This document shows, in pieces, positions 10,288-29,199 of a stretch of 29,199 nucleotides of DNA. The notes below the pieces were generated by a model that had not been told where the DNA came from, ran no database searches, and was given only the letters and a program-made list of their open reading frames with translations. Both the position numbers and the translations under genes were made by a program. The stretch spans positions 1-29,199 of IMG/VR virus record IMGVR_UViG_3300018084_000009. The stretch is one strand, 5' to 3'. The DNA is from a virus. How positions within the stretch are numbered: position 1 is the first letter of the stretch; the number at the start of each line of letters is the position of its first letter.

Positions 10288-13200
10288 CTAGCTAAACTTT
10301 AAGAAGTTCTGTCTGTTCGAGAAGAAGAACTTGCCAATAATTTCCTCTCCTGTTCCTGGCGTTGTTGGGTTTGTGTTTAAAACCGCTGCCGAGAAGAAGA
10401 ATCCTTTATCACCTACGATTACGAATTCAGGATGAGGCATCGGTCTAATACCAGTCACAAGCTCTGCTGCCGTGTTCACTTCGCCGTTGCTATTGAGTTC
10501 ACGGACCGATACTATTGCGCCCGATGTTCCTGGATTTAGGATCGAGATGACCTGCACGGGGCTAACTGAGTTACCACCCGGATTTAGGAACAGCCCATCG
10601 ATATTAAGGGCGCTTCCGTCACGACCAAGTGTTCTACGTGTGGCTTCTCCTGCTCTTGATACTAGTGTCGTTGACTCTCCTACGTTAACTGCTCCGTTTA
10701 GGAGTGGAACATCAACTAGACGACGAAGAGGATTGGTTCCTTCGATAGCTACGTCATAAACGTCGCTGCTTGATCCAATGCCGCTAACGAAGACGATCGT
10801 GCCGTTAGCAAACGGGCGACCGCCAGTGAAGTATCGCTTGATCTCGCGACGACCACCTGGAAGTTTAAACTCGTTAACGTGGTAAAGGGCCTCATCGCCG
10901 ATGTTTAAGAAGCCATCAACACAGATGGCACCACCTAAGGAATCGAAATCTGGATCGTTTGACCCCGGACGAATTGGAGGCGCATTGTAATCTTGTTCAG
11001 TTAATCCGCGATATCTTTCTTGAGTGCCAGCGTTTGGTGTGTTCGTAAATGTTAGAGCGTTGTTAACATCCGTAATAGTCACTTTGCGGATTACTTCGCT
11101 CTTACTAGTGCTACCGACAAGAATCTGTGGTGGCGGAGTAGGACGCGATGGCGTTCTGATGCTGGGTGTTAATGTAAGTAGATCAGTATCTATAGGATTA
11201 ATGATACCATTTAGAATAGAACGTTGTCTTTCGCCAAGTGGCGCATCTCGTCCGAATGAGGCAAAAAAGCTAGCGATCCGATAGTTGCATCGAATGCCGT
11301 TTGTGCCTAGACTAAAGTTAATATCTGTGATACCGTGATTACGGATACCAATACGACCGCTTGTGTCTGGATCGTTGTTAGAGAATGCATCGAATGAGAT
11401 AGTTGGCATACCAACCACTTCGATTTGTGCAAATGTGGAGGTTGCTGCTGGCGCGATCAAACCTTGTAGGCGGCGGATGGCGCGATCTTCCATTAGTTTA
11501 ATGGAGGTCGTAGTTCCTTGCGGCGGAAAGTTCCATGGTGCGAATTGATCATCTACCACTAGAGATTCGGCATCACAAGGTGTCAGGAGCGCACCGCTTA
11601 CCCAAATGGATGGAAAGGCCATTCCATATCTATTTGGCGCTAAGATTGGGATAGCTACTCCTATGAGAGATCCATATGGTGCGATTAATAAACTTGGATC
11701 AACAACGTCAACTAGACCAGAACTTGTTGAATCTAATGCTTCTTCCGCTAACGTAACAAGATTGCGGAAAATGAAGTCCGAAGATAATCCAGTTCCCGCT
11801 ATTACAGGAAGCTCTACCAATAACGTTCCTTCTGGATACTCTTCGAAAGCTCTGAGAGGATCGTGAGGATCGATTGTTAGTTGTCCTACTTCTGTAAGCG
11901 TAACGGGAACATAGTGTTCTCCGGTTCGTGTACGTCTACCGCTTGTGGCCGGTATGTTACCAATATTGAAGTCTTCTGTCCACTGTCCGAAGCCCGCTGG
12001 CGACTCATCGCCCTCCGCACCATAGACCGTGCCTGATGGCAACACTGTATAAGCAGAGATCTTGTCATCGGTGCCCTTGAATGGAGCTAATGGACTGAGA
12101 TCTAGATTGATCTCATAGTCGTTTACGAACAAACCGCTTGCTCCAGCTACGCTGATTGGTTGTCCTTCAATCTGATTCTCAACGTTACCCCATGCTGCGT
12201 TTGCTAGCTTGAAAGCGCCAGATGCGGCATTTGCCAAGATACCAGATGCAATGTATGCTCTGCCATAGAAGCGAGAAGCGTGATCTCGCACGCGAGCATA
12301 GAAGTTTAGCACCCAATTCTGAGCGGCATCGCGTCTATTATTGATCAACCTTAGTTGACCAGATTCATTACCACCTAGGTTTGCTAATGGTTGTGCTGGA
12401 TCTAATCTACTTTGGAAGTCTGGATGTTGTGCGGCAATGCTACCAGCATCAGCAGGAAGGCCGAAACCTGGAGAGGTCAAACCTAAATTGATTGCTGCCG
12501 TCTGATACTTCTTGTAGTATGCCCAATGCTCGATGCTCTTGAGGGCGGCTTTCAACTCTAGATCGTTTGGCTTATAAGAACGTAGGATGCCGTATGGATC
12601 TGTGAACTGGACCGAGAAGTTATTCCATGCTGGATAGAACGTGATTCCTGATGCTGGAGTATCTAATCCATCTAGAGGAGATAGAAGTGGCGAATTAATC
12701 CACCCCTCTTGGTGAGCGCCTAATAATCTGACGCGGCGAGCTTGCGTAATGAGGTCGTCACCAAAAGCTAGTCTAATCGTGTTATCTAAACCGCTAGCTG
12801 CTCCGAGATTGGATACTATACTGAATAGTTCGCTCTCATGCAACGCGAATGGGATGCGTCTATTGATGAGTTTGACGGTCTGTTCCGACATGCTCCAATA
12901 CCAATCATAGGCGCACGCTTCAAGAACCTGTGTGATGGCGTCAGTGAGAGGAGTGCCTTCAAACTGGAAACGAATAGCTGAGGCGGTTCCACCAAGGTTA
13001 GCTTCTAAAGCGGCAACACTTGGAATAGAGTTGATGTTGAATTGGATCTCACCCTGGTCGATAGCAAGCTGGATAGCTTTGATGATCTGAGGATATGTTG
13101 CACCCTGTTCAAGAATCTTGCGATACTCTCTGAACTTCTCTTCTGAGATCTGACCATTTAGATCTTGGAAACCATCAACAATACGAATAGCTCTAGCAAT

Positions 13201-13647
13201 AGAGAGCGTTCCAGAGCCAGGATTGTTTGGTCCCAAATCTTCTGTGACGATTTTAATTCGATCTAGGCAACGTCTAGTGTCCTGGATATTAACAACCAAG
13301 ATGGTGCCACCACCGGCATCGATATTGTATTCTGAATGCGAAATCTCACCACTAACTAGGAAGTTGCCGATCGTGAAACCGATAATCTGTCCTACAGTTG
13401 GTGCTTGTCCGCTTGCTCCATGAAACGCTTGTGGATCATCTCTTGTTGGAACCCACGTAGTGGAAAATCCGTGTGGTGTGGTATTGAATCCAAATGTTGC
13501 ATTGATTTGGATTAGCGCAGCTTCTAAATCTCGTCCCGGTTGTCCTGGCGGAATCAATCCACTTGGAAAAGTAATGATGGGGCCACAGTCACCTAGACCA
13601 AGCCCTGCAACATCAATATCTGCTCCATTCAGATTGAAATTTGGCAT
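10288..13647 (-). CDS. Large tail/baseplate hub-like virion protein
   Basis: A 1119-aa protein, last of the structural module. The first ~330 residues look hub-like: IGFTIGNFLVSGEISHS then TILVVNIQDTRRCLDRIKI resembles the beta-barrel/ligand block of phage tail hubs, and ITQVLEACAYDWYWS then VKLINRR resembles the following domain. The middle and C-terminal parts are beta-rich, Gly/Pro/Asn-rich and without recognisable enzyme motifs. No signal peptide or transmembrane segment is visible. Its ATG overlaps the previous stop (TGATG). The family is not identified, so 'baseplate hub or tail tip' is inference from these segments and from lying downstream of the tape measure. Confidence 0.7.
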   Translation of the reverse strand: MPNFNLNGADIDVAGLGLGDCGPIITFPSGLIPPGQPGRDLEAALIQINATFGFNTTPHGFSTTWVPTRDDPQAFHGASGQAPTVGQIIGFTIGNFLVSGEISHSEYNIDAGGGTILVVNIQDTRRCLDRIKIVTEDLGPNNPGSGTLSIARAIRIVDGFQDLNGQISEEKFREYRKILEQGATYPQIIKAIQLAIDQGEIQFNINSIPSVAALEANLGGTASAIRFQFEGTPLTDAITQVLEACAYDWYWSMSEQTVKLINRRIPFALHESELFSIVSNLGAASGLDNTIRLAFGDDLITQARRVRLLGAHQEGWINSPLLSPLDGLDTPASGITFYPAWNNFSVQFTDPYGILRSYKPNDLELKAALKSIEHWAYYKKYQTAAINLGLTSPGFGLPADAGSIAAQHPDFQSRLDPAQPLANLGGNESGQLRLINNRRDAAQNWVLNFYARVRDHASRFYGRAYIASGILANAASGAFKLANAAWGNVENQIEGQPISVAGASGLFVNDYEINLDLSPLAPFKGTDDKISAYTVLPSGTVYGAEGDESPAGFGQWTEDFNIGNIPATSGRRTRTGEHYVPVTLTEVGQLTIDPHDPLRAFEEYPEGTLLVELPVIAGTGLSSDFIFRNLVTLAEEALDSTSSGLVDVVDPSLLIAPYGSLIGVAIPILAPNRYGMAFPSIWVSGALLTPCDAESLVVDDQFAPWNFPPQGTTTSIKLMEDRAIRRLQGLIAPAATSTFAQIEVVGMPTISFDAFSNNDPDTSGRIGIRNHGITDINFSLGTNGIRCNYRIASFFASFGRDAPLGERQRSILNGIINPIDTDLLTLTPSIRTPSRPTPPPQILVGSTSKSEVIRKVTITDVNNALTFTNTPNAGTQERYRGLTEQDYNAPPIRPGSNDPDFDSLGGAICVDGFLNIGDEALYHVNEFKLPGGRREIKRYFTGGRPFANGTIVFVSGIGSSSDVYDVAIEGTNPLRRLVDVPLLNGAVNVGESTTLVSRAGEATRRTLGRDGSALNIDGLFLNPGGNSVSPVQVISILNPGTSGAIVSVRELNSNGEVNTAAELVTGIRPMPHPEFVIVGDKGFFFSAAVLNTNPTTPGTGEEIIGKFFFSNRQNFLKFS

Positions 13648-14096
13648 CAGTTAATTATAAGTGTGAAAGGCATCTGATTAGTTATATCACGTACCTCTTC
13701 TTCTGCTGCTCCATCTTCTGAACGCCATACGATCTTAAGTACTTTACCAACTAAAGATCCGACGCCAACCGCTCTATACTCATACTGTGGATGTGGAGCC
13801 ATTAGAACTCCTAGCTTTTTGGCAAAGAAGTATCCATCTGCATCTGGCACTGCATTAATCTGTAGATCTGGACGATCTCTAAAAGCGTATGCCATATGCA
13901 TAATGCGTTTATTTTGCTCTTGGCAATACATCTTGAGTCTGATCCACGCATTAGGTTCAGCAAGTTTTTGATCATCCTCAGACTGATAAATTTCTGTTCC
14001 GTCATCTAGAAGTACAACCCAAAATTGGTCGAATGGACATTCCTCCAATCTCGTTGCGAGATGGTAGGAATTCCTAGCCATGTCATTACTATTCAT
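13647..14096 (-). CDS. Hypothetical protein in tail module
   Basis: A 149-aa soluble protein I do not recognise. It contains FWVVLLDDGTEIYQSEDD, then AWIRLKMYCQE, then MAYAFRDRPDLQINAVPDADG and FFAKKLGV: a compact alpha/beta fold with a beta-rich C-terminal end (VGVGSLVGKVLKIVWRSEDG). It is acidic, has few Ser-Gly pairs and does not look like a fibre. The ATG has AAAGGA upstream, and the stop overlaps the next ATG (TGATG). It could be a tail accessory or chaperone-like protein, but nothing in the sequence proves this. Confidence 0.75.
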   Translation of the reverse strand: MNSNDMARNSYHLATRLEECPFDQFWVVLLDDGTEIYQSEDDQKLAEPNAWIRLKMYCQEQNKRIMHMAYAFRDRPDLQINAVPDADGYFFAKKLGVLMAPHPQYEYRAVGVGSLVGKVLKIVWRSEDGAAEEEVRDITNQMPFTLIIN

Positions 14097-14106
14097 ATCC
14101 TATCCT

Positions 14107-14763
14107 TTACAAGAACTCTACTACCATGAAGAAGCCAAAGTTGTTTCTCTGGCCAAGCGCCTCAGGTGAGGCGGACAGACATGTAAAAAAGTCATGCTGT
14201 GTTTGCGAAATTGTATGATCCACGAATGAAAGCTGGTTACTAATCGTGCCCACGCCAGCAAGTTGTGTCCACACGCTTTGGTTCACCGGCTCGAAACCTT
14301 GGATCTTGATACCGGTAACAACTGTAGAAACATCATTTACACCGCTTGATGCGTTGAGGGCTACTGCTCTTAGAACTGCGTTCTGTGTTCTTACTGAAGC
14401 TGCACCAGATGGTGCGAAGCGGATGAGGAGTGTACCAGAAGCGAATGGAACTGTGCTTACTGCTACTGCACCTGCGCCGTTAATGTTTACGGTGTTGATT
14501 GACGCATATTTGTTATTGATAAGCTGTCCACTTGCTCTAAGTCCCCATGGAGACTTTCCAAGATTTGTACCACTCGTGTTAGTGATGAAGGTTTTATCCT
14601 GGTATCTATCGATGATGATGGCAAAAGGAGTACCCTCGGGGCCACCAATGCCGAAAAATCCTAAGTGGTTGGCACCGCTGGTGTTGCCCGGAATAACGAG
14701 CGATTCAATAATAGTACCGCTTGCAGGTGCGCCAGAAGGCGCCATAAATGTGATAGTATTCAT
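14107..14763 (-). CDS. Ser-Gly-rich virion structural protein
   Basis: A 218-aa beta-rich protein with very few charged residues and eight Ser-Gly pairs (for example APSGAPASG, NTSGTNLG, FASGTLL). Composition and place among tail genes suggest a virion surface or tail protein, perhaps a small fibre or decoration protein. No specific domain is recognised. It has the strong ribosome binding site AAGGAG 5 nt before the ATG, and its 37-nt upstream gap carries a motif shared with another gap, so it may begin a transcript. Confidence 0.75.
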   Translation of the reverse strand: MNTITFMAPSGAPASGTIIESLVIPGNTSGANHLGFFGIGGPEGTPFAIIIDRYQDKTFITNTSGTNLGKSPWGLRASGQLINNKYASINTVNINGAGAVAVSTVPFASGTLLIRFAPSGAASVRTQNAVLRAVALNASSGVNDVSTVVTGIKIQGFEPVNQSVWTQLAGVGTISNQLSFVDHTISQTQHDFFTCLSASPEALGQRNNFGFFMVVEFL

Positions 14764-14800
14764 AACCGCTCCTTAGATGACTAGTCTATTGCCTTATACA
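14764..14800 (-). promoter_or_regulatory. Intergenic gap with shared 10-base motif
   Basis: A 37-nt gap before the 218-aa gene. It holds AAGGAG and ACTAGT (14780-14785). CCTTATACACTAAA (plus strand) at its edge, 14792-14805, overlaps the previous stop codon. ATACACTAAA recurs exactly at 22422-22431, again upstream of a gene with a strong ribosome binding site. It may be a phage promoter or processing site; no canonical -35/-10 pair is visible. Confidence 0.3.
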
Positions 14801-16978
14801 CTAAATGCTTATGATAGCCGATCTGCCGCTTAAGATAACGTCGGCTGAATCGACCTCGTTTATGTAGTTAATAACGAACGACGTATCCATTTTTGCAAAA
14901 TAGAAACGCGGAACTGCATCTACAGTTTTAAAGTAGATGTAATTGACTCCCTCGGAAGGATCCCAAACTGCCGGGCCAAATGTATCGACCCTACTTGTGG
15001 TCATTGGAATTCCTGTAGCAAAGCTGATAGCTGTAAACGCAGAAGAGACACTTATTGTGTCTGGAACAACGAACTGGTTATTTGTTGTAACTGCTAAACG
15101 AATCTGCCAAGAGGGGAAAGAGCCAACCGTATAGGTTGACTCAGAGCGCGCAGTTGGTGGAACTAATTTTGTTGTGGCAGCACCAATAACTGAAAATCTA
15201 TTGCAAATAGGTTTTACAGGAATACCACCAATACGGTCACTCCACTGTATAGCTATATCTCCATTTACATGAACAAATCCATAATTCGGCTTCTGCAAGA
15301 AGAAGAATGAAAAGATATTGTTAACATGATAGGTATTTCGATAATATTGAAGAGCTTGTGTAGTTGTAATTGGTGACTGTGGGGGTGGAAGTTCTACCCA
15401 TGCAAACAATCCAGTCGTCGGATCTGTTCCTTCTCGATATATATGAGTAACATAGGTGATTGTATCTGAAATCTTGCTACCTCCGGTTGCCATATCGTTA
15501 TCTGGTACTACTAGTTGATCGATAGTTCCCCATTGGTTATACAACTTGCGTGTAACGATGCGATTAGTAGAAGCGTTGATATCACCTAGAGTATAATTTG
15601 TGCTGTCCGGTGCGCCGAACACACCTCTTGTAGGCACATAAACCGTAGTTGAAAATGTTGTCCAGGCTACTGGTGAGAATGTTTTGTTGGTGGAAAACCA
15701 TGAAACGATAGAAGAGTCACCAACCCTAGGAACAAGAATACCACCGAAGCCATAAATTATATCTCCGTTAGCATATTTGGTGGCTTGATTATATCCTTTA
15801 CCTTGTGAGTTTGTTTCTGTACCAACAAAGTGTCCGAATATTCTTTTGCCATTAATGATGCTGCGACCAGCTAATAGATTTCCTGGAGCACCAGCCGTTA
15901 TGTCATAAATTAGGCGATTCAGGATATGAACTCCATTATGTGCTTTGCCATTTCTATCGACACCACTTGGTGCATAGTAATTGGCTGGCCAATGTTGAAC
16001 GTTATATCCACTGATGCCAACATCTGCAACATCAAGCAACATTACACCCTGTGTATTTGGTATAGTTGTACTTGGTATAGTTGTGTTGTAAATTGATTTA
16101 CGACCAGAGACTGAGATAGTTCCATTAGCTACTGTCTCGTAGTATCTATTTAGGCCCGTTCCGCAGGGATAAAGAGCCCATGGCACCATTTCCTGGAATA
16201 AACCCTCACCACTAGCCGCTACTCCAGATCCTGGTAGTAATTTGAAACTGGTACCATCAAGTAATCCATCACCAGTAATAAGTACTCCACCAGATGCTGA
16301 TGCTCCCAACGCTAGTTGTCCATACTTTTGATCATCTAGAGTTGACATGGTGGGAAGTGAACCATCCAAATTAAGAGCCATCGGGAAGATTGGTTCAAAT
16401 GGCACGTTGTTATTTGTTAGGGTCGCCAACTTCTTAGGACGAGCAAATGGTTGCCACTGTAGCTCATCCATATCAATATCTTGCCAATACTTGGCGCCCA
16501 ACTCGTCGCCCGATGGTGTTAAACCAACCGGATTCTTATGAACATAGTCACCAGGAATTACGTCTGGTCTAGAAGAAGTGGGAAGATTGTATGGCGTATG
16601 CTGTCTATCTAGATGTGCTACTTTGAAGTCTTGTGCAGTATGATCGCTATCTGCTGCATGACCAGTAAAGGCTGCACTTAGCGTACTGCGTATGTCTAGG
16701 ATAACATCTGCATAGTGCGGCGTGCCGCGTTCATAACCGCTAGCATTGATGGTTGGCTCTTGTGAAATTGTTGTATTCGATGTGCGATTGATATATAGCT
16801 TGAATATATTAGCAACAGGATGGCTAGCTAAAGCTGTGAACAATCTCTTGTCAAGCTGTGCAGCAAAAGCCGGAATAGAAAAGAGTCTACCCTCGAACGC
16901 CACCTTTTCACCAGAGGCTACTAAGAAGGGTTCACGAGCATATGGGTACGGACGTTGTAAATACTCGTATCCACTCAT
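14801..16978 (-). CDS. Tail fibre/spike-like virion protein
   Basis: A 725-aa beta-rich protein, rich in Thr, Ser, Asn, Gly and aromatic residues, with no signal peptide, membrane segment or enzyme motif I recognise. It contains a short internal duplication, TTIPSTTIPNT, and about 11 Ser-Gly pairs. The ATG overlaps the stop of a 25-aa mini-gene (ATGA), so its translation is probably coupled to it. Being directly downstream of the large LamG adhesin, it may be a second receptor-binding or fibre-attachment protein. The product name is inference from composition and position. Confidence 0.75.
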   Translation of the reverse strand: MSGYEYLQRPYPYAREPFLVASGEKVAFEGRLFSIPAFAAQLDKRLFTALASHPVANIFKLYINRTSNTTISQEPTINASGYERGTPHYADVILDIRSTLSAAFTGHAADSDHTAQDFKVAHLDRQHTPYNLPTSSRPDVIPGDYVHKNPVGLTPSGDELGAKYWQDIDMDELQWQPFARPKKLATLTNNNVPFEPIFPMALNLDGSLPTMSTLDDQKYGQLALGASASGGVLITGDGLLDGTSFKLLPGSGVAASGEGLFQEMVPWALYPCGTGLNRYYETVANGTISVSGRKSIYNTTIPSTTIPNTQGVMLLDVADVGISGYNVQHWPANYYAPSGVDRNGKAHNGVHILNRLIYDITAGAPGNLLAGRSIINGKRIFGHFVGTETNSQGKGYNQATKYANGDIIYGFGGILVPRVGDSSIVSWFSTNKTFSPVAWTTFSTTVYVPTRGVFGAPDSTNYTLGDINASTNRIVTRKLYNQWGTIDQLVVPDNDMATGGSKISDTITYVTHIYREGTDPTTGLFAWVELPPPQSPITTTQALQYYRNTYHVNNIFSFFFLQKPNYGFVHVNGDIAIQWSDRIGGIPVKPICNRFSVIGAATTKLVPPTARSESTYTVGSFPSWQIRLAVTTNNQFVVPDTISVSSAFTAISFATGIPMTTSRVDTFGPAVWDPSEGVNYIYFKTVDAVPRFYFAKMDTSFVINYINEVDSADVILSGRSAIISI

Positions 16979-17052
16979 CTTTCATTCTCATGAGGACATT
17001 TACCATAGAGTCCCCTTGCTATCTTGTTGTATTTCTTGCCTAGATTGCTCAT
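16975..17052 (-). CDS. 25-aa mini-protein bridging two fibre genes
   Basis: A short frame that exactly fills the gap between the 1523-aa and 725-aa genes. Its ATG overlaps the upstream stop as TAATG, and its TGA overlaps the downstream ATG as ATGA. The peptide begins MSNLGKKYNKIARGLYGK and ends CPHENER; it is strongly basic with one Cys and one His. There is no ribosome binding site, so it would be translated by re-initiation. It may be a real small virion or regulatory peptide, or simply a coupling leader carrying ribosomes to the next gene. Confidence 0.5.
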   Translation of the reverse strand: MSNLGKKYNKIARGLYGKCPHENER

Positions 17053-20000
17053 TAGTAATCCGAACCAGCAGAAATAGAGTCAGATACAACACCCCACGAG
17101 CCGCTCACCGCCCACACTGGCGTATAACTTCCAGGCATGGTATAATCGTGAGTTCTCACAAAGTTGATGAACTGACTGTCAGTCGGCATTTCCAATCCGT
17201 TTAATAAAGTTTCTTGTTGATCCGCGAAGTCTGTGTATTCCAATAGACCACTCGTAGTGCTGATACCAGACAGCGAGTAGGTAAGGAATATGCGTTGAAT
17301 TGCACTTCCATCAACCGGATTACCAGATAATGTGATTCTTGGTAAAGTTGATAGATAGGCTCCAGATGTTGAGCCACTAGGAACTAATAAGAATGGACGC
17401 ACACAACTATGGCGATAACCATAACTATCTGTGACTTCCATCTTGATTGTGTACCAACCAGGAGTGTTGAATGTTCTTGAAGCTTGGAATAATCCACTAA
17501 ATGGTAGGCCACCAATTAATGTTCCGCTCTCAGCCCCCTTGAAGTCGGCAAAGGTGAATCTTACCTTGGCAATACTCTTATTTTCGAATGCCCAACCACT
17601 ACCTTGTACTGTTAGGGTGTAGGGCGTGCCCGATGCAATATGACCAACTGCTGGCAATTGCATTGTGCATTCTGGTGGTGCGGTGATTCTGATTACGCCC
17701 ATCATGGCGTCGAAGTTCTGGTACTGGCTCTTAACAACTTCAAGTCTTGAGTCGAAGTCCTTAGCTGCAACAATCTGGAAGTTAAACGTGATATCAAACT
17801 CAGATAGAGCTTCGCCAGCACCAATTGTATAGGCTCCGATTACACCGCTTGCTATACCCATACCGTGCAAGAAGCCAGCATAGAGTCCGCTAATTTGGCC
17901 TATACCATGAATGAAGCTTCCGATACCTATGCCGCTGAGATTTCCAACGCCATAGATATAGCCACCCATATGGTCAACTATACCAGATGTACCGATGATA
18001 TATCCACCTAGCCAAGATAGATCTTGAGCCATACCGTGGATGTATGATGCAATTAAACCTGATACAATTTGCTCTGGAATACCGCTTAAATAACCTCCAA
18101 TGAGCGATGTTACCTGCGTTCCGGCAGTCTTGGCAAAGCTATAGCTATTTGCTGCAAGACCTGAAATCTCGGGTAGGGTTAATGCTCTGCCAAAGATCAT
18201 GAAGTCATCTAGAATACCAGAGAATGCGCTACCACCAGCAATTGGGTCTAGTTGTGTATCACCGCGGCCACCAAGGGCAAATCCCGATGTATTGACGGGG
18301 ATGCCGAATAGAAGTTGTTGAGTAGTGCCAGCATATCTACAGTTAACAACAGATGTGAACTTATTATTGTCACGATCGTAAATGAGTGCAATATGGTTCC
18401 ACGAACCTGGGGCTAGGTCACCATTATTTGCCTGAGTCGTGATACCAGATGCGTAACCAATTAGCTGTAGAGAATCTGGTGGTGTGTAAACCTGAATACC
18501 AGATCCTTCAAGATCGTTACCGCCGCCCTTATTCATAATCACATGACGATCGGTATTTGATGCGCCATCTGGTGGTGTCACCCATCCAAGCAAAGTCCAA
18601 GACTGAGTACCAGAACCTAAATCTAGTCGCTGTGATTGAGGATTGTTTGGTAATGAATCTAGATATTCAGGTACTCTGATAACTACACCACTACTATGGA
18701 TTGCTTTAAAGTTACCAATACCGTGAGCATCTGGATTTACCAGAGTTAGATGGTTATTCTCTCTACCAAAGTCGCGAGTTGGATTGATTGGCTCATTCAT
18801 TCTCCAATGTGAAATGTTGGCAGGATCTGTTGATGATACTCCGCCACTTACCAATGGAATATTCAATATAGCAGCGCGCTTTGTAAGCAGCCACTGATCA
18901 TAGGTTTGATAACCTAAATGCATGAACGCTAAACCAATTCTAGTAGTTTGTGGAAAGCCCAATTGCATGTTAGGAACGTTCAGTAAACTAAGTCCACTCG
19001 CTCCTACGGGATTGGGGGTTGTGTGATCGTTTCCAAATTGTTCGTCTATAGCGTATGTAGCTTCTAAAGTTTCATCTTGGGCAGCATAAACCACCTGTGC
19101 TCTAGTAAAACCTCCAGATGGGAAGATGTTACATCCAATAAAGAATGGAGTATTGAATGGAACTGTTCTCGTTGACGTGAATTCATTCAGTGCAAATTCA
19201 TTATCAAATAGTTTGATATGAAACTTATTATCTCGCACTCCCAAGAACCAAGATCTACCAAATGTATCTTGATCCCATGCACCCATAATCATATGGTCAC
19301 CATAAAGACCACTCGATCCCTGACCTTGTGTACTTAGATCACCAGATGGTAAGAAGATCCATGTTCCAGCACTCATTCCACTCAGTGAATATAGTGTTGG
19401 TAGCGATGCATCTAAGTTTGATCCATGGAAGATACGCTCCAAACTAATCATAGCTCCACTTCCGGTTGTCTGTAGAGCGTTGTTATAATCTACTATGTCC
19501 GTGTTAAGAATCGTTCCTTGTGTAAATGCACCACTAAGATTTGTTAGATGGTGGAAGTACCAACTTTTGTCGTCTACTCTATTACCACCAGCATAACTCG
19601 TAATTTGATCTAGTGGCCAGAAACCAACTAAACTCTTAAGTGTTGTGTTTAGATGTGCGTCTACTGGCTGCTGAATATTACGTAAGGCGAATCCAGACAT
19701 TTCTGGAATGGATAAAACTCTTCTATAAACTGCAAAGTTATCGAACTCAACTGATCCAGTAGATACAGGGAAGAATCCAAAGAATCCTTGATTTACTCCT
19801 AATCCTTCTGATGACCAACCAGATGATGATGATATCTGTTGCGTCATTGGTATTAAGTGCTTAGCGTCCCGCACAATATACATCTGTCCAGCTTTCAGAT
19901 CATATACACCAGCCCATAGATGCCATCCATCATCACCACGATCAAATTCTGGAACTACGTTAGCACCGTTTGTTAAACCAAGGGCGTTACCTGGGCGGTT

Positions 20001-21623
20001 GTTGGCTGTAGCGGTTGTGGCAAAACTAGTCATACGCTGATTGCCAACACCGCTTGCAAATGCACCAGTAGAGAGTGTGTTCGTGTTTACTGCAACACCA
20101 GCTTGAACGCTATCAATAAAGAATGCGTTATGTCTTCCGGCTGCTCCCAACCATCCGAAGCCACCACCATTGAGTGCAGAACCTGTTGGAACAGATCTCA
20201 TCCATCCAATAACAGTCATACCTTCATCTAATATATGACCGCTTGGGAATAGTAGTGCTAATCCGCTTTGCGCCGGAATAGCTGGATACTGTTTATTATT
20301 TAGTAGAGTTCCACCATCGGTTGTATTTGCAATAGTAGTTGTTGGTGTAATACGTATTGCTTTACCACCATCAATACCATTCACGAAAGCCGATGCGGCG
20401 ATACCACTTAGTGATAGATTAAGTCTTGGATCTGATGCTGTTGCTGGCGCTGTGTTATTTCCATTATTTTCAAATGGCCAATAAGCAACTAGTCCATTAT
20501 TACCAGGATATTCTGGAACGAATCCACTACTTTCTGGATTGCTTGTTTCGATAAGACGAATACCACTCAGCGCATAGTGTGTGATCCTATCATTACTTAA
20601 AAATCCATCATTAACTACTATTAGTTCATCAATAATGGTACCGCTTGCGGTATGGCGGTCGCGCGCAGTTGTGTTTGTTCTCGGGTGAGATTCGCTCAAA
20701 AGAGATACTGGAACGCCGTTAAGATCTGGCGACAAGAAGATTACTGGTAAATCTGGACCTCTAAAGGCAAAGCTTCTAGTTTGAATAAGTCCGCTAGCCT
20801 GTGTTCCAATATATACCGTAATTTGTCCGCTACCACTAATACCGTATGATCTATTGGTTTCTGAATCTTCTCTACGATATTGACAAGCTATCCAAAATGG
20901 TTGTGCTCTATTTTTAGGAAAATTTGGTGAAACTACAGTAGCTACGTTTGAGGAAGCTGGAAATTTTGTGATATTACTTGAAACCTGACAGCTTACTACT
21001 CTTGTAGCTGGAGTATTAGGTACGGTAAAGTTTGTATTAGCAAGATGTGTAAACTGTAGTGCATAATCTCCAGCATTCTGAGCCCAAGATAGACGCCATT
21101 GCACTGTTGTTGCTAATGCACCGTTATCCTGATCTGACCTGCCAATAATCGCCTGTTCTGTTGTCTGATCTGGAACTTTATCAGGAATTTGTATCCATGC
21201 GATAATTGTAAAGCCGGAATACATTGGAGCGCCAATGCTTAATGTTCCATGAGGCTTGGCTGTCGTTGAGTTTTGTTCAAGCATAATAGACGGATCAACA
21301 TACAACATCTTGTTGTCCGCTGCATTAAGACAATGAAACTTTAAACCGCTACCATTCAATGCCCATGGTGCAATACCTGATACAGGTTGCAACACTTGAG
21401 TATTTGCAGGATTAGTACCAAAAAAGTATGGTTTAAGATGGTGCTTTTGAGGACCAGAATCTACCATCAATCCCGATAGATAGTTCGATATCCCCTTTTC
21501 TTCTGGAGTCTGATAATTGTTTTTAGGTGAAGCGTCGCCAAAGCGCCACCACGCTGCGATCAGCGGATTGTCACTTCTCCAATAGTCGTAGTTCGAGCCA
21601 TTAGGCTGCCAAATTCTTGACAT
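17052..21623 (-). CDS. Large multi-domain adhesin with four LamG-like and PKD-like domains
   Basis: A 1523-aa virion protein, probably a receptor-binding tail fibre. Four concanavalin A/LamG-like repeats lie at about 18-357, 376-648, 664-925 and 936-1158. Each opens with a W/Y-x-F-type strand (GLVAYWPFENN, SLVGFWPLDQ), has a central strand such as FTIIAWIQIP or MTVIGWMRSVP, and closes with a DEL/DNF/DDF segment (FDNFAVYRRVLSIPEMSG, LDDFMIFGRALTLPEISG). The third has the most divergent ending. These folds usually bind glycans. Residues 1176-1276 are seven Gly-rich repeats. Residues ~1335-1520 contain two Ig/PKD-like domains (FNTPGWYTIKMEVTDSYG, THDYTMPGSYTPVW). I count 48 Ser-Gly pairs. The ATG has AAAGGAG, about 6 nt spacing, inside the previous gene's end. 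Confidence 0.85.
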   Translation of the reverse strand: MSRIWQPNGSNYDYWRSDNPLIAAWWRFGDASPKNNYQTPEEKGISNYLSGLMVDSGPQKHHLKPYFFGTNPANTQVLQPVSGIAPWALNGSGLKFHCLNAADNKMLYVDPSIMLEQNSTTAKPHGTLSIGAPMYSGFTIIAWIQIPDKVPDQTTEQAIIGRSDQDNGALATTVQWRLSWAQNAGDYALQFTHLANTNFTVPNTPATRVVSCQVSSNITKFPASSNVATVVSPNFPKNRAQPFWIACQYRREDSETNRSYGISGSGQITVYIGTQASGLIQTRSFAFRGPDLPVIFLSPDLNGVPVSLLSESHPRTNTTARDRHTASGTIIDELIVVNDGFLSNDRITHYALSGIRLIETSNPESSGFVPEYPGNNGLVAYWPFENNGNNTAPATASDPRLNLSLSGIAASAFVNGIDGGKAIRITPTTTIANTTDGGTLLNNKQYPAIPAQSGLALLFPSGHILDEGMTVIGWMRSVPTGSALNGGGFGWLGAAGRHNAFFIDSVQAGVAVNTNTLSTGAFASGVGNQRMTSFATTATANNRPGNALGLTNGANVVPEFDRGDDGWHLWAGVYDLKAGQMYIVRDAKHLIPMTQQISSSSGWSSEGLGVNQGFFGFFPVSTGSVEFDNFAVYRRVLSIPEMSGFALRNIQQPVDAHLNTTLKSLVGFWPLDQITSYAGGNRVDDKSWYFHHLTNLSGAFTQGTILNTDIVDYNNALQTTGSGAMISLERIFHGSNLDASLPTLYSLSGMSAGTWIFLPSGDLSTQGQGSSGLYGDHMIMGAWDQDTFGRSWFLGVRDNKFHIKLFDNEFALNEFTSTRTVPFNTPFFIGCNIFPSGGFTRAQVVYAAQDETLEATYAIDEQFGNDHTTPNPVGASGLSLLNVPNMQLGFPQTTRIGLAFMHLGYQTYDQWLLTKRAAILNIPLVSGGVSSTDPANISHWRMNEPINPTRDFGRENNHLTLVNPDAHGIGNFKAIHSSGVVIRVPEYLDSLPNNPQSQRLDLGSGTQSWTLLGWVTPPDGASNTDRHVIMNKGGGNDLEGSGIQVYTPPDSLQLIGYASGITTQANNGDLAPGSWNHIALIYDRDNNKFTSVVNCRYAGTTQQLLFGIPVNTSGFALGGRGDTQLDPIAGGSAFSGILDDFMIFGRALTLPEISGLAANSYSFAKTAGTQVTSLIGGYLSGIPEQIVSGLIASYIHGMAQDLSWLGGYIIGTSGIVDHMGGYIYGVGNLSGIGIGSFIHGIGQISGLYAGFLHGMGIASGVIGAYTIGAGEALSEFDITFNFQIVAAKDFDSRLEVVKSQYQNFDAMMGVIRITAPPECTMQLPAVGHIASGTPYTLTVQGSGWAFENKSIAKVRFTFADFKGAESGTLIGGLPFSGLFQASRTFNTPGWYTIKMEVTDSYGYRHSCVRPFLLVPSGSTSGAYLSTLPRITLSGNPVDGSAIQRIFLTYSLSGISTTSGLLEYTDFADQQETLLNGLEMPTDSQFINFVRTHDYTMPGSYTPVWAVSGSWGVVSDSISAGSDY
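17796..18098 (-). repeat. Seven tandem 14-16-residue Gly-rich protein repeats
   Basis: Residues 1176-1276 of the 1523-aa adhesin split into seven units starting GGYLSG, ASYIHG, GGYIIG, GGYIYG, GSFIHG, AGFLHG and GAYTIG. The spacing is 16, 14, 14, 15, 14, 14 and 14 residues. The pattern is small-small-aromatic-hydrophobic-x-Gly, often followed by a Ser-Gly. Nucleotide codons differ between units, so the similarity is at protein level. Confidence 0.75.
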
Positions 21624-22116
21624 GAACTACTCCTTTATCAAGTGGACTCATACTTAGTCTATAAAGTATCGTTTCATCTTCTTGCAATATGTCTGCATTA
21701 ATAGATTGGATACACAGCATTTCTTTGTCTAGCGTTGCTAAAAATGGAACAATAACTTCTGTTAGTTTAGTTTCTTCTGATGGATGTAGATGTTCAACTA
21801 GATAAACTGTGTCGCCAACTTTTAGATCGTAAGTGTGACTGTTGTAAGTCACTACTAAATCGTTGAGTAGCGAAATTTCTACTTCAAGATCTGAGATGCG
21901 CGAAACTACTCCAATCCTAGCGTTGACACTTGATAATGCGGTGAATGAAATTCTCATCTTTGTTTGTAGATTTTGAGGCAATTCCACCGTTGTCATATGA
22001 TTACGTTTATTACCATAGAGATCAACAAATGATAAATTCAGTGTGTATATATCGAGAAATCCCTCTTGATGAGAGAAATCTAATGTCATATCCGCATCCA
22101 GTAACCAACTTTTCAT
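21601..22116 (-). CDS. Hypothetical tail-module protein
   Basis: A 171-aa protein, mostly beta and soluble, with no domain I recognise (VTYNSHTYDLKVGDTVYLVE looks like a small beta-barrel segment). I chose ATG at 22116, with AGGATGGG upstream. A longer GTG reading up to 22164 would translate through the transcription terminator hairpin at 22131-22162 and is rejected; ATG at 22128 is possible but poorly spaced. Its end overlaps the adhesin start by 23 nt, so it is coupled to the adhesin and may be a connector or assembly factor for it. Confidence 0.72.
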   Translation of the reverse strand: MKSWLLDADMTLDFSHQEGFLDIYTLNLSFVDLYGNKRNHMTTVELPQNLQTKMRISFTALSSVNARIGVVSRISDLEVEISLLNDLVVTYNSHTYDLKVGDTVYLVEHLHPSEETKLTEVIVPFLATLDKEMLCIQSINADILQEDETILYRLSMSPLDKGVVHVKNLAA

Positions 22117-22130
22117 CAAAAATCCCATCC

Positions 22131-22162
22131 TAAAAACAGGGCTACCCCAATAAGGGGTAGCC
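22131..22162 (-). terminator. Rho-independent terminator after the 61-aa gene
   Basis: Read on the minus strand, a perfect 9-bp stem GGCTACCCC / GGGGTAGCC with a TTATT loop is followed by CTGTTTTTA. It lies about 30 nt past the 61-aa stop and just before the ATG of the next gene. It is the only clear intrinsic terminator in the window, so it probably limits or tunes read-through into the adhesin genes. Confidence 0.88.
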
Positions 22163-22190
22163 ACTATTATTCACTCGCCATCCAAACCAC

Positions 22191-22376
22191 TTACGCGATT
22201 GTGAATGGATTTGTGGGCTTAAACTCACTCACTGCGAGTCTAGACACAAATTGTGCAACACCTACGAAAGCGTCCGTAGTTGGATTACGGTCAGAGTAGA
22301 GTAGCAGAGTGCGGCTCTTGCTCATACGCATACGGTTAACGCGGTTGTTGCTTGCAGCAGCATTGATTGTTGCCAT
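22191..22376 (-). CDS. Small basic 61-aa protein with its own terminator
   Basis: A 61-aa protein with a basic N-terminal half (SNNRVNRMRMSKSRT) and a neutral hydrophobic C-terminal half (DAFVGVAQFVSRLAV). No known family is recognised. It has the strongest ribosome binding site in the window (AAGGAG, 6 nt before ATG), a 75-nt upstream gap and an intrinsic terminator downstream, as expected for an abundantly made small protein. The gene order suggests a virion component or tail-assembly protein, but the sequence itself does not show which. Confidence 0.75.
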   Translation of the reverse strand: MATINAAASNNRVNRMRMSKSRTLLLYSDRNPTTDAFVGVAQFVSRLAVSEFKPTNPFTIA

Positions 22377-22451
22377 GTTTTTCTCCTTTTGAACTAGTTC
22401 TGAACACGGAATATGTACTTAATACACTAAAGGTGATTGTACACCTAGACA
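22377..22451 (-). promoter_or_regulatory. Longest intergenic gap; candidate promoter region
   Basis: A 75-nt gap before the 61-aa gene. On the plus strand it contains CTTAATACACTAAA (22418-22431), a perfect 10-bp palindrome GAACTAGTTC (22391-22400) and the AAGGAG site. On the minus strand, AGGTG...CACCT forms a weak 5-bp stem. Because a terminator ends the same short unit, a promoter here is plausible; no textbook -35/-10 pair is visible. Confidence 0.4.
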
Positions 22452-23042
22452 TTAATAGAAATCAAAGGTTAAGCGTGGACGTAATAAACCACTACCACAA
22501 GCTCCATATGTTCCAACAGGAAAATCTCTATCTAAGAACAAACGCATATAAATCCATTCACTGACGTTCTGATCATTAAAGCTTAAAAGCTCTGATCTGC
22601 CATCTATACGTCTGAGATTGAATTGAGTCGGTAGAGTAGATAAAAACGTCTGTCCAAAACCACTAGGAAAGCTCGGATTAGGCGTCCAGGTGGGACTGGT
22701 GTAGAACTGAAGGCTCGCTCCTGGAAGGCTAATAGAGGTGCCCGAGCCCGCTGGGAGCCATAATCTCATATTGTATACTGCGTATAGTCCGGATGCTGAT
22801 AGTGTTCCAAAGTTAGGAACGCAAACATTCACTACGGCTACTTTTGAACCTATAAACGGATCATTGTTCGCTAAACTTAACTTAAGATTAGAGAACGACA
22901 TGGCGCCAGAGCAATTTAGTCCCAGCTCTTTGTCATAAGCGAAGGCGCCGCCAACCAAATGACGGGTTCCGACTGGATCGGCAAGTTCCGCACTATTCCA
23001 TGAGGAAAATCTAATCTGAGGTACAACACCAGAGTATGGCAT
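22452..23042 (-). CDS. Virion structural protein, paralogue of the next upstream gene
   Basis: A 196-aa beta-rich protein that aligns with the neighbouring 175-aa protein. Shared features are a V-P/L-P-Q-[IV]-x-F start and an NFGTLSASGLYAVYNMRLWL block. The shared C-terminus reads NVSEWIYMRLFLDRDFPVGTYG here, then R-P-R-L-x-F-D-F. It carries about six Ser-Gly pairs. The ATG has GAGGA, about 8 nt spacing. Probably a tail or baseplate decoration subunit; the family is not recognised. Confidence 0.75.
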   Translation of the reverse strand: MPYSGVVPQIRFSSWNSAELADPVGTRHLVGGAFAYDKELGLNCSGAMSFSNLKLSLANNDPFIGSKVAVVNVCVPNFGTLSASGLYAVYNMRLWLPAGSGTSISLPGASLQFYTSPTWTPNPSFPSGFGQTFLSTLPTQFNLRRIDGRSELLSFNDQNVSEWIYMRLFLDRDFPVGTYGACGSGLLRPRLTFDFY

Positions 23043-23054
23043 CTAGATTATCCT

Positions 23055-23582
23055 CTATGAAAAGTCGTACAACATTCGGTATCTGAAACTGCCAGCCGAT
23101 GGACCACCATAAGTTCCATAAGGAACATCGATGTCAACATAGTTTGCTAGGTAGATGTACTGACTAACGTGACCGTCGAACAAGCCACTTAGGACTGGTT
23201 GTCCACTCGTTGAAAGTACATTCTGAACTGGTTCAGTCAATGGTACATCTACATCTGCTAAGCTGAGTCCAAAACTTGATCCAAGCCAATGCGTAGAGAT
23301 TCTTTGAAGGAAACGATAGTTACCTAAATAGAACGCGTTAGTGTTGGTCAAGAAGAAGCGCATATTAAAGATACCAGATGCGCTGCCGAAGTTAGACACC
23401 CTAAAGATGGCCATCTTTGTATCAGTAATGCGTCCAGAGACTGAAGTATTCACGTTACCAAACTCTAGACATCCAGTGATGCTAGTATCCAGCACTTTGA
23501 TACCACTAGCTGCAATATGTCTGAATCCAGATGGATTCACACTCTTGTTGAATTGGATGAACTGTACCTGAGGTAATATCAT
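23055..23582 (-). CDS. Virion structural protein, paralogue of the adjacent 196-aa protein
   Basis: A 175-aa beta-rich protein with six Ser-Gly pairs. SNFGSASGIFNMRFFL and HVSQYIYLANYVDIDVPYGT match the corresponding blocks in the adjacent 196-aa protein, as does the C-terminal R-x-R-M-L-Y-D-F ending. The pair therefore looks like a tandem duplication that has diverged. The ATG overlaps the previous stop as ATGA, so it is coupled to the 496-aa gene. Role is unknown; a tail-tip or fibre-base subunit is likely from the surrounding genes. Confidence 0.75.
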   Translation of the reverse strand: MILPQVQFIQFNKSVNPSGFRHIAASGIKVLDTSITGCLEFGNVNTSVSGRITDTKMAIFRVSNFGSASGIFNMRFFLTNTNAFYLGNYRFLQRISTHWLGSSFGLSLADVDVPLTEPVQNVLSTSGQPVLSGLFDGHVSQYIYLANYVDIDVPYGTYGGPSAGSFRYRMLYDFS

Positions 23583-25069: not shown

Positions 25070-25635
25070 TTGATGTCACTCCATCGTTGACCAGTATTAA
25101 TTTTACTAATTGCCTGTGTATTCACACCAAATCTTATAGCTAATTTCTTCTGAGAAATACCAATACGAAGTGCTCTCTTTATAACTTTAACTTGTTTTAT
25201 AGTAAGTTTAGCATGAGAATTGGCTTCACCTGTATATTTACCAATTCTTTTTTGGCTCATTAAAAGTTTACTCTCAATAGAGTGTTTCAATCCTGTTTTA
25301 ATTTTGCTAAGATGTAATTTGGTCGCCTTACTATGTTTGAATCCAAGTTGACTATTGGCAATAGGACGACAGTTATATTCAGGTTTAACAAAATCTAAAT
25401 AATATTGTTCGCGCTCAATACATTTTTCTGGAACACACTCTTCTAACACTTCAAATACAAAACTTTCTTCTCCATATTTATTCCAAGCATTTTGTAATTT
25501 AGATGAATGATGTTTGTCTTTTTTAAGATCAGCTAAATGAAATTGCCATCTATTCTGGAATCCTTTACCAGCAGCACTACCTATGTAGAGCTTATTATTT
25601 AGAATATTTCTAATCTGATAGATGCCAGTATTCAT
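25066..25635 (-). CDS. GIY-YIG homing endonuclease (free-standing)
   Basis: A 189-aa selfish endonuclease. The catalytic domain shows G4-I-Y and Y17-I-G (TGIYQIRN...NKLYIGSA), R29 and E75 (IEREQYYLDF). Two NUMOD3-like DNA-binding repeats follow (GFKHSKATKLHLSKIKTG, LKHSIESKLLMSQKR). The C-terminus is a helix-turn-helix (SQKKLAIRFGVNTQAISKI), as in I-TevI/Seg-like enzymes. These enzymes cut allelic sites in related phages and copy themselves by recombination. The gene is visibly more AT-rich than its neighbours, consistent with recent arrival. It overlaps the tape-measure stop as TAATG, and its own stop overlaps the next GTG. No intron boundary is evident, so it seems free-standing. Confidence 0.93.
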   Translation of the reverse strand: MNTGIYQIRNILNNKLYIGSAAGKGFQNRWQFHLADLKKDKHHSSKLQNAWNKYGEESFVFEVLEECVPEKCIEREQYYLDFVKPEYNCRPIANSQLGFKHSKATKLHLSKIKTGLKHSIESKLLMSQKRIGKYTGEANSHAKLTIKQVKVIKRALRIGISQKKLAIRFGVNTQAISKINTGQRWSDIK

Positions 25636-28600
25636 TATAGTTGATTACGGTTTAAAATTCCTAGTCTTTGTAGTTCTAGTCTAATCGACTCAACTACTTG
25701 ATTTGCGATATCACGAGCCTCTGTCTCTGTTGCGAAGCCTCCGAATGTATCAGATAGTGCTTGAGCAATGCGGGTTACACCAGCTTCGAATCCTGTTACT
25801 GTCACCTTCTGCTCGCCATTGATATTGATTGTAATCTCTGGTTGAGCGGCTGTTCCAGCAACGGTAGCTGTCGCAGTTCCTGCCACGTTTCCACTACTAT
25901 CACGAATCTCTGTCAACACCTCGCTGTTTGTCGCAGTGACGGTATTGATATTCTTTAGTTCACTAAGGATGTCGCTTAGACGCTGGTTAGTCTCTTTAGA
26001 ACTTGATGAGTCTGGTAGGTTAGAGTTTTGCTCTTGGGCGTTACCAAAAGCACGACTAACGATACCTGGAGCTAAGCCAGCCTGACTAGCTATTTGCTGT
26101 TGTAGGGCTGCGTTACTTCCATCTCTACGGAAGTTTTGTGCCATCTCGGCTCCACGATCCTGTGGAGTTGTAACGTTTTGAGCCTGTGGGGCTGTTAATC
26201 CTGGAACGGTTAAACCACCAGTTGATAGAACGTCTCTAAATGCTTGGGCGATCTTGACACTTAACGCATCTGGTAGAGTGTTGGTTATGATGTCATTCGT
26301 GCGGGCAATAACACCCGTAACCATATTGAATCCATTCTTAGCGTTAGCGTCCTGCTGTAATAGGACGGTTCTAAGATCAGAATTCAATTCGGCAATCTTA
26401 CCGCGAAGTGCTCCACCCTCCTCTTTGAGGCGATCCAACTGGATCTTAGCTAGATCTTTTGCTGCCTGAGCTTCTGTTAACTGCTGCTTGGATTGATCAA
26501 CTTGCTGTTGTGCAGCTAGTAATTGATCTGTTGCGATTAGAGCTTGCTGCTCGGTTAGGGCCGCGATGCGCTTCTGGACCTCAAACAGCGGATCAACATC
26601 TAATCCCTCTTCGCTCACACCAAGTGAAGCTGTCTCAATAGCTGTTAACAATTGGTCAGATGTAAAGCCACCAACGGTTGCTCCACCTAGTTGTCCAAGA
26701 GTTTCTAGAGATCTAACAATTTGCTGACGGGTTTCTTGTGGTAGAGATAGTAACTGCGCACCTAGATCGTTAATAGCACCTTCACCCATCTTCTTGAAGT
26801 TCTCGAAACTTCCGCCCAATAGGTCTGCAACACCTTTAGCCTGCTGGATGCCTTGGAATAGGGATGCTTGATCCTCTGCGCTACTCTGGAAGAATGTCTT
26901 TGCTAGATTCGACTGCTCACTTAGCAATTGATTAAAGAGTGCTAGTTGCTGATCGATAGACTGTTTACGAATTTCAATTAAGGTCTTTTCGCTGGCTCCT
27001 ACGTTTCGAGCCATGCTTTCTGCCGCCTTAAAGGCATCTGTCACAGCGGACAACTGATCCTTAACTCCAGTAAATCCTCCGGTGAGTTTGATAGTCTGGA
27101 CCTCTGCTAGTCGTAGATTCAGATTGTATTGTGTAGTTGCAAGGATCGCTCCCTGGATTGCCTCCCTATATGATAGATAAGCATCAGATAGTGCCTTTGT
27201 TGCATCTAGAATTGCCTTCTGAGCGTTTACCTGCTCTTGCTGATTAGCAAGCGCCTCTTGCACAACCTGCTGAATAGCTGCGCGGCGTTCTGAAACAACT
27301 TGAGCTTCCGCCTTTGCGGCATCTAGGGCTGCGATTGTTCCACGCTTTCTTATATCTGCAAGGCGAGCTTCCTTTTCTGCTCCATCTGTAATAGTAGCAT
27401 TCACTACGGCAGTTTCTGCGGCTAGGGCAGCCTGTGTGGTCCGAAATGTCTGAGTATTCTGTTCTAGCTTGCGATTAAACTGATCAATTTGTCTCTCACC
27501 CACACTTAGTAGGTCAACAAGTTCTCCACGACCAGCAATTACTGTGCGCTGGAAATCAGCCTCTCTTTGTCCGGCAGCAATAGCCTCTTGTGCTACTGCG
27601 AGCGTTTGTTTGATGTTTGCAATACGCTCAGATGCTAACATTTCCTCTAGAGAAATAGTCTCTCTTGTGCGCTCCTCTTGAAGAAGTGCAAGTTTATCCT
27701 TTGCTGCGGCATCATCCTTATTAATTGCGATGGCAGCCTGTTCGACCGCCATTAATTTCTCAAATGACTTGATTCTATTTTGCGATTCTGTGATATTGGC
27801 AGCGGCTACACCAGACTCAAGTTGTCGGGCGGCGGCAAGTTGTCTTATACCAGTTAGTTCCTCAATGAGTGCTCTGGCATTCTGAGCCGAGATTTCGCGG
27901 CGCTGCTTGCTGATACCGATCTCCTTCTCCTGCTCACTTAGTAAGAATTTGAGTTCATCTACCTTTGCTCGGTTGACACGGAGTCTTTCCTCGGCTACGT
28001 CAGTATCTAGCTGAATGAGCTTTTCTCCGAGCTTTTTAGCATTGTCAACGATTGTATTGATAGACTCTTCACCGATTGCGTCTCGCACATTCTTTTGAGG
28101 TAGCGACTTCTCTAAGATTTGGCGCTGCTGTTGAGGATTTGTAATACCCTCTTTTCTAATCTTCTCTAGTGCTAATAATAAGCCACCAGATAGTTCCTTT
28201 ACAGCATCACCCACAGTACGATCTGCATCCTCTGGCGCGAAGCCTGGAAGAACGTTACCCTTTTGGTCACGCCCTATCACGCGTTCTAATCCCTCGATTT
28301 GTTCGTTGATAGCCTTTGTGAACTCCAGGATGGCGTCGGTCGAACCAAGTCCACGACGTTCTGTAGCGGATTCAAGTCTTCCCTCTGCAAACTGTCTTAG
28401 ACGAGAAGCCAACTCCTTTTGAGGAGTGGTAGCATTTAGTGTCGCCTCATTCAAACGAATAATTTCTGTTGAGAAGTCTGCTATGAAGTTACGTAAAGCA
28501 ATTTGTAGTTTGTCAACTGGCTGACCAATACCTCTAACGATCTGACTACTTGAAGTAATCATCTGTGTTGCAATACTATCGAATGCTAATAGCTGTGATG

Positions 28601-29199
28601 CTAATTGAGCACCACGGTTACGCTGGGCAGCTTCGTTTTGAGCCTCAAGAACGGCCTTTTTGATTTCGGCTGGCAATGTCTGTAACACCTTATCAAGTGC
28701 TGCTCCAGCTCTGCCTAGTCCTGATCTACGCTCCTCGCCACCAAGTTCGCGCGCCTGCGCGATAGCGCGAGCGACCTGATCTACACTTAGTCCAACACCA
28801 CCAGCGCCAGTAGGTCCACTACCTCTAGCTGCCGAAGCTAATGCTGCATTAAGTGCTTTTTGTACATCCTCAGTTTCAACACCCTTCGAAAGTTGTTGTA
28901 AAGCTCCAGAGAATGGTTTATTTGCTCTAGCACTTACAATATTGTTAATAGGTAGTAGCTGTTCAATTTGATCTGTAAACTGCTTTTGGCGCTGTCTTAA
29001 TTCAACCGCGCGTTTCTTAAGCTCATCGGGAGATAGAAGATTTGCTGTTTCCTCGAAGAACTTTTTAGCCTGTTGCTCAATTCGGCTCTTCGCATTTTCT
29101 GGAGTAATAGCAACTAGTGCATCAGTAATAGCGTCGAATTCTTGAGATGTGACTTGCCGCAATGCTTCCGATCCCATTTTAAGAGTTTCATCCTGCAAC
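25635..29199 (-). CDS. Tape-measure-like tail protein (5' end outside window)
   Basis: An open frame with at least 1187 visible residues whose start lies beyond the right edge. It is overwhelmingly helical and coiled-coil-like, rich in Ala, Gln, Glu, Leu and Lys over most of its length, with few Pro or Cys. The C-terminus has EITININGEQKVTVTGFEAG, then an amphipathic helix, resembling ends seen in other phage tape-measure proteins. Tape measures set tail length and enter the host during infection. The usual hydrophobic transmembrane stretch is not visible in this part. The first in-window start (TTG near 29198) is not the real start. Its place before the baseplate and fibre genes fits the canonical tail order. 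Confidence 0.8.
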   Translation of the reverse strand, partial: LQDETLKMGSEALRQVTSQEFDAITDALVAITPENAKSRIEQQAKKFFEETANLLSPDELKKRAVELRQRQKQFTDQIEQLLPINNIVSARANKPFSGALQQLSKGVETEDVQKALNAALASAARGSGPTGAGGVGLSVDQVARAIAQARELGGEERRSGLGRAGAALDKVLQTLPAEIKKAVLEAQNEAAQRNRGAQLASQLLAFDSIATQMITSSSQIVRGIGQPVDKLQIALRNFIADFSTEIIRLNEATLNATTPQKELASRLRQFAEGRLESATERRGLGSTDAILEFTKAINEQIEGLERVIGRDQKGNVLPGFAPEDADRTVGDAVKELSGGLLLALEKIRKEGITNPQQQRQILEKSLPQKNVRDAIGEESINTIVDNAKKLGEKLIQLDTDVAEERLRVNRAKVDELKFLLSEQEKEIGISKQRREISAQNARALIEELTGIRQLAAARQLESGVAAANITESQNRIKSFEKLMAVEQAAIAINKDDAAAKDKLALLQEERTRETISLEEMLASERIANIKQTLAVAQEAIAAGQREADFQRTVIAGRGELVDLLSVGERQIDQFNRKLEQNTQTFRTTQAALAAETAVVNATITDGAEKEARLADIRKRGTIAALDAAKAEAQVVSERRAAIQQVVQEALANQQEQVNAQKAILDATKALSDAYLSYREAIQGAILATTQYNLNLRLAEVQTIKLTGGFTGVKDQLSAVTDAFKAAESMARNVGASEKTLIEIRKQSIDQQLALFNQLLSEQSNLAKTFFQSSAEDQASLFQGIQQAKGVADLLGGSFENFKKMGEGAINDLGAQLLSLPQETRQQIVRSLETLGQLGGATVGGFTSDQLLTAIETASLGVSEEGLDVDPLFEVQKRIAALTEQQALIATDQLLAAQQQVDQSKQQLTEAQAAKDLAKIQLDRLKEEGGALRGKIAELNSDLRTVLLQQDANAKNGFNMVTGVIARTNDIITNTLPDALSVKIAQAFRDVLSTGGLTVPGLTAPQAQNVTTPQDRGAEMAQNFRRDGSNAALQQQIASQAGLAPGIVSRAFGNAQEQNSNLPDSSSSKETNQRLSDILSELKNINTVTATNSEVLTEIRDSSGNVAGTATATVAGTAAQPEITININGEQKVTVTGFEAGVTRIAQALSDTFGGFATETEARDIANQVVESIRLELQRLGILNRNQL

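Follow-up and report, generated by a model that had tools for sequence, protein, structure and literature searches.

The window analyzed here, a 29,199-nucleotide stretch of viral DNA (IMG/VR record IMGVR_UViG_3300018084_000009), encodes a 1523-residue tail adhesin-like protein that contains a glycine-rich array built on a 14-residue unit. We consider it probable (roughly 0.6) that this array forms a fibrous shaft of beta-repeats within a phage tail adhesin. The repeat is unnamed (SG-hh-GG-Y-h-x-G units followed by FDA rungs) and marks the tail adhesin in a clade of large phages that are uncultured and had no named relative in our searches, for which it offers a sequence handle for annotation and a target for phage fibre structure work. 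Beta-repeat shafts in phage adhesins are already known as a fibrous class; this particular repeat had no named match in the libraries searched. The genes and domains that frame the array are as follows.

25635..29198, minus strand: 1187-aa coiled-coil-rich, tape-measure-like gene, upstream of the adhesin (sequence and gene order).
About 17052-21623, minus strand: 1523-aa tail adhesin-like gene with the repeat (open reading frame; full-length relatives).
18144..18722, minus strand: LamG/ConA-like jellyroll directly before the repeats, residues 968-1160 (PF13385).
17388..17642, minus strand: PKD/Ig-like domain, residues 1328-1412 (PF00801 below the cut-off; AlphaFold beta-sandwich).
10288..16978, minus strand: neighbouring tail/virion-type genes of 1119, 149, 218, and 725 aa (synteny; relatives L007-L017).

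Full-length relatives of the adhesin were found in other phage contigs at 31-66% identity, and the gene order around it was kept in relatives L007-L017. We infer the tape-measure-like label of the 1187-aa gene, which had no match in PHROGs, and because of this upstream gene we place the adhesin in a distal-tail block. A LamG domain N-terminal to the repeats, as originally predicted, was confirmed by a match to Laminin_G_3 (PF13385) at 64.4 bits against a cut-off of 27.6 (E = 1.8e-17, residues 1005-1154). A profile of this region matched pentraxins and an S-layer-domain protein in the PDB. The PKD domain predicted on the C-terminal side was supported in relative L018 (PKD_4, PF18911, 44.6 bits against a cut-off of 27), but the window protein itself stayed below the threshold for PF00801 (18 bits against 23.5); AlphaFold modeled this part of the window protein with beta-sandwich strands at a pLDDT of about 90. 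Family members keep the array in one position: a LamG-like jellyroll, or the helix that closes it, precedes the array, and a PKD-like domain follows it.

Seven Gly units occupy residues 1172-1275 (minus strand, window 17799-18110), with lengths of 16, 14, 14, 14, 15, 14, and 17 residues in order. They are followed directly by three units of a second kind, F-D-[A/S/G]-x-h-x-h...D, which keep an exact spacing of 14 residues across the family.

18063..18110, minus strand: rung 1, TSLIGGYLSGIPEQIV, 16 aa.
18021..18062, minus strand: rung 2, SGLIASYIHGMAQD, 14 aa.
17979..18020, minus strand: rung 3, LSWLGGYIIGTSGI, 14 aa, SG replaced.
17937..17978, minus strand: rung 4, VDHMGGYIYGVGNL, 14 aa, SG replaced.
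17892..17936, minus strand: rung 5, SGIGIGSFIHGIGQI, 15 aa.
17850..17891, minus strand: rung 6, SGLYAGFLHGMGIA, 14 aa.
17799..17849, minus strand: rung 7, SGVIGAYTIGAGEALSE, 17 aa.
17673..17798, minus strand: three FDA rungs, FDITFNFQIVAAKD, FDSRLEVVKSQYQN, and FDAMMGVIRITAPP, 14 residues each (conserved spacing and F-D motif).

The array is best described as seven Gly rungs plus three FDA rungs, a total of ten because the three FDA units continue in register. Comparison with relatives indicates that the true period is 14 and that the units of 15-17 residues carry local insertions; the one-residue insertion in rung 5 was seen in the window member only, and the last Gly unit of relative L041 is likewise 17 residues long. 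The original prediction of seven tandem glycine repeats thus stands, with its unit length of 14-16 residues corrected to a period of 14 with insertions up to 17. The array was predicted at 17796-18098; its Gly units cover 17799-18110, and the predicted range left out the FDA rungs at 17673-17798. The description of the region as nearly free of charge fits the window and its closest relative (four D/E/K/R in 105 residues) but not other relatives, which have up to 12.

Both the adhesin and its 1119-aa neighbour served as entry points for gathering relatives, and the family has the consensus unit S-G-[IVL]-[IFV]-G-G-[YF]-[IVM]-x-G-x-[DE]-x-[GA] in an exact 14-residue register. In a logo of 173 distinct units, where the search pattern imposed or favoured the residues at positions 1, 2, 5, 6, and 7 and left positions 4, 8, 10, 12, and 14 free, Gly occupied position 10 in 134 units and Asp or Glu occupied position 12 in 90. 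A DNA scan of IMG/VR for two tandem S-G-x-x-G-G-[YF] units matched 41 stretches. Of these, about 30 are genuine and show the consensus unit in register; they lie mostly on large contigs, of which many are 150-183 kb long. Eight loci were not counted as family (L028, L029, L032, L035, L046, L058, L059, and L063), among them L029, L058, and L063, which were rejected as other low-complexity repeats, and L035, where only an array end was visible. The number of units was mostly 7 or 10 (a Gly part of 101 or 143 residues ahead of the FDA rungs). Members with 5, 6, 8, and 9 units occur too, and we rejected on that account a geometric rule by which the number would step by three. All seven large phage contigs that were searched whole contained one array each.

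The steady 14-residue period that had been predicted was only modestly visible in the window protein alone (lag-14 identity, z = 2.4). Pooling eight orthologs, namely the window and seven relatives that are 46-69% identical to it over the repeat region, raised the lag-14 score to z = 11.7 and gave z = 9.3 for lag 28, with other lags at or below 2; the shuffles applied a single permutation to all sequences and so preserved their relatedness. Relatives were found to be more regular than the window, the opposite of a loss of periodicity. In addition, a 14-column profile made from 164 distant-clade units, with the window clade excluded, scored the window region at 20.6 against -79 ± 21 in shuffles, and none of 1000 shuffles reached 20.6.

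In line with the original prediction, which recognised no named repeat family, profile searches of the repeat region against Pfam, PHROGs, NCBIfam, and PDB sequences returned no significant named-family match, and the repeat profile gave chance matches only against the PDB. One of 33 members matched phrog_35574 (function unknown) at E = 0.004. Searches of 50,697 named phages by tblastn with the whole adhesin, the repeat region, and idealised repeats found nothing relevant; putative tail proteins of Aeromonas phage (E 1e-3) and Stenotrophomonas phage proteins (marginal, below 60% identity), both matched by the idealised query, were treated as unrelated Gly-rich sequence. Our literature search, which covered open-licence papers, found no description of the 14-residue repeat.

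A scan for FDA pairs found the FDA module only alongside SG units, plus one outlier (L071). Among 84,980 bacterial and archaeal genomes, the FDA pattern had one true case, on a 158-kb contig that carries the phage-type protein and belongs to a MAG labelled Hydrogenophaga, and the remaining matches looked like chance. Of 301 bacterial genomes, this MAG was the only one with the module, which was absent from the 300 others around it. Because the contig is probably a binned phage, Hydrogenophaga is only a weak hint to the host. The outlier is a tail-collar-like protein from an unrelated 55-kb contig. It contains many FDAAFxLxGIEKTx repeats in tandem, which are 14 residues long and resemble the FDA rungs in period and FDA motif. 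It differs from the window adhesin in lacking the SG-GGY array and in its other domains (weak PF07484, below the cut-off), and its repeats are at most possible relatives of the FDA rungs.

If the array is a shaft, each unit would make up a single rung in a beta-solenoid or beta-prism. The alternating G2-h4-G6-h8-G10 face would be packed inside, leaving x3, x9, and D12 outside. The chain would probably oligomerise, most simply as a trimer by analogy with other phage fibres. Ten rungs at 4.8 Å each would give a rod of about 5 nm, which could determine how far and how stiffly the PKD/tail-anchoring end is held from a receptor-binding lectin array, and the number of rungs (7 vs 10) could tune its length. 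The LamG array, pentraxin-like by profile, is the putative binding part. The shaft reading is supported by the 14-residue register, the unit logo, the two standard classes of 7 and 10 units, the kept spacing of the FDA rungs, the LamG/PKD context, the location among tail genes, the presence of one array per contig, and the near absence of the module from bacterial genomes.

Structure prediction bears on this reading in both directions. AlphaFold monomer runs on window residues 968-1523 (10 sequences; pLDDT 30-43 in the repeats) and on the L041 array (33 sequences; pLDDT 43, pTM 0.26) both placed strands in the repeats at low confidence; over several units, the second run repeated a 12-residue strand and a 2-residue turn with a period of 14 residues. 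The predicted beta character was therefore supported, and the original interpretation as a whole in part: the repeats are likely to be beta in nature, with fold and oligomeric state not established by the models. The low confidence of both models in the repeats weakens the case for a shaft, as does the strand pattern of the second run, which equally fits an antiparallel meander. A fold search with the repeat model had no match in the PDB below E = 1, which also weakens it, and a search with the first model brought up generic virion proteins for the most part, Ig/PKD-type ones included. Two sequence features count against the shaft as well: SG is missing from two of the window's rungs (3 and 4), and the locus L019:5868-9956 encodes a single protein in which SG-GGY units, some alone and four as a group, separate LamG-like domains, the isolated units being unexplained by a self-standing solenoid.

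If the units formed a left-handed parallel beta-roll or solenoid as a monomer, in the manner of YadA heads or hexapeptide repeats, no trimer would be needed; we regard this as the strongest competitor while judging it rather unlikely. The left-handed parallel beta-roll heads of YadA and BpaC, which are trimeric autotransporter adhesins, share with the repeat a layer of about 14 residues, glycine and small residues, and an adhesin context (PMC9543794). The best PDB neighbours of our model, non-significant and drawn from a low-confidence prediction, were for the most part enzymes with a left-handed beta-helix and ice-binding proteins. However, those heads belong to bacterial cell-surface proteins and not to phage tails, and YadA_head, Hexapep, and Pentapeptide of Pfam had no match at E <= 1 in any of the 33 members. 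With an alignment of 33 rows, a self-standing solenoid would usually be predicted more confidently than this, a point we count against this fold. The logo differs too, since the canonical YadA head motif GxNSVAIGAxSxAx has a single invariant Gly at position 8 (PMC9543794), which Gly at positions 2, 5, 6, 10, and 14 does not fit.

A flexible or low-complexity linker with no defined fold would account for the glycine content and the low pLDDT, and single units are seen in linker positions between domains in L019. Disordered linkers are expected to drift in length and pattern, though, and here the register is strictly 14 residues with few indels, Gly positions are invariant or nearly so, positions 4 and 8 are consistently hydrophobic, the FDA rungs are kept, and the units mostly number 7 or 10; we consider a linker improbable. 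Very improbable, and the least likely of the rivals, is insertion into the host membrane as a glycine zipper or a pore-forming segment; the glycine zipper had been offered as an alternative in the original prediction. Such a role would suit a hydrophobic, Gly-rich array that in the window member is almost without charge, but the maximum 19-residue Kyte-Doolittle mean reached 1.34 for the window and no more than 1.54 for other members, so that every member tested stayed under 1.6. In seven distant-clade members the regions hold 8-17 charged residues, recurring at position 12, where about half of the distant-clade units have Asp or Glu. The low hydropathy and this recurring acidic residue argue against a membrane segment, and the array is flanked by two extracellular-type domains.

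The shaft reading also invites comparison with known phage and viral rods. The triple-stranded beta-helix of T4 gp5C, the cell-puncturing needle, shares with the repeat a phage tail setting, a short Gly-containing unit, inward hydrophobic residues, and a rod shape, but it is an octapeptide repeat and a needle at the hub (PMC3004832), whereas the window repeat has a period of 14 (lag 8, z = 0.9) and lies between LamG and PKD domains. In the adenovirus fibre, the repeated beta units of the triple beta-spiral likewise build a rod bearing a receptor-binding head (PMC8869412). Neither a sequence nor a fold match between this spiral and the repeat was found. The signature of the adenovirus repeat differs from the 14-residue unit.

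A clade-wide excess of Ser-Gly in virion-type proteins is a sharply defined puzzle separate from the repeat; about nine such proteins of these phages show a 2- to 3-fold enrichment. Tail-type proteins of the window contain 106 SG dipeptides against 38.9 expected, with no other dipeptide above z = 3.2, and the enriched set comprises seven virion-type proteins (window 10288-25069; about 2.7-fold, a size biased upward because the seven were chosen for their SG excess). With the rungs masked, these proteins still had 103 against 38.4, and GS, NG, DG, TG, and AG were at or below expectation. The excess was absent from the window's replication genes and its tape-measure-like gene. Unselected totals over all ORFs gave 1.6-2.2 times expectation per clade locus, compared with ratios of 1.18, 1.22, and 1.06 in the controls T4, MTATph1, and SPO1. 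In one 176-kb relative, nine ORFs had an excess (picked by P < 0.01, with up to about two expected by chance) and the other 176 ORFs were at a ratio of 1.01. Ser and Gly within SG were more conserved than other Ser and Gly; in the 1119-aa neighbour, Ser conservation was 0.95 in SG and 0.51 elsewhere, with the Gly of SG only marginally more conserved (P = 0.06). Turn propensity was rejected as the cause since NG and DG are not enriched, and a mobile 6-mer at the DNA level since many codon pairs are used for SG.

On sequence grounds we can suggest, with considerable doubt, that SG is a clade-specific functional motif in about nine tail/virion-type proteins, for example an acceptor of a modification such as Ser glycosylation. 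If so, the 14-residue repeat would be a dense array of [small/hydrophobic]-S-G-[hydrophobic] motifs, and the modification could be phage- or host-encoded. Matches to GT2 glycosyltransferases, 3-6 per contig and several of them clustered, were present in all seven large contigs (G001-G007, which are the contigs of L016, L007, L018, L054, L060, L036, and L062), a weak support for glycosylation because GT2 is common.

Several observations on the surrounding loci are recorded here. A homing-endonuclease-like gene (25066-25635), whose best PHROG match was phrog_314 (likewise a GIY-YIG family), sits between the tape-measure-like gene and a 496-aa gene. Relative L024 has a partial second copy of the N-terminal half of the adhesin (L024:5203-7035) upstream of the full-length gene. 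The window also encodes a phage DNA polymerase III alpha subunit (2-3025) that is about 32-35% identical to versions in named phages, including Moorella phage MTATph1.
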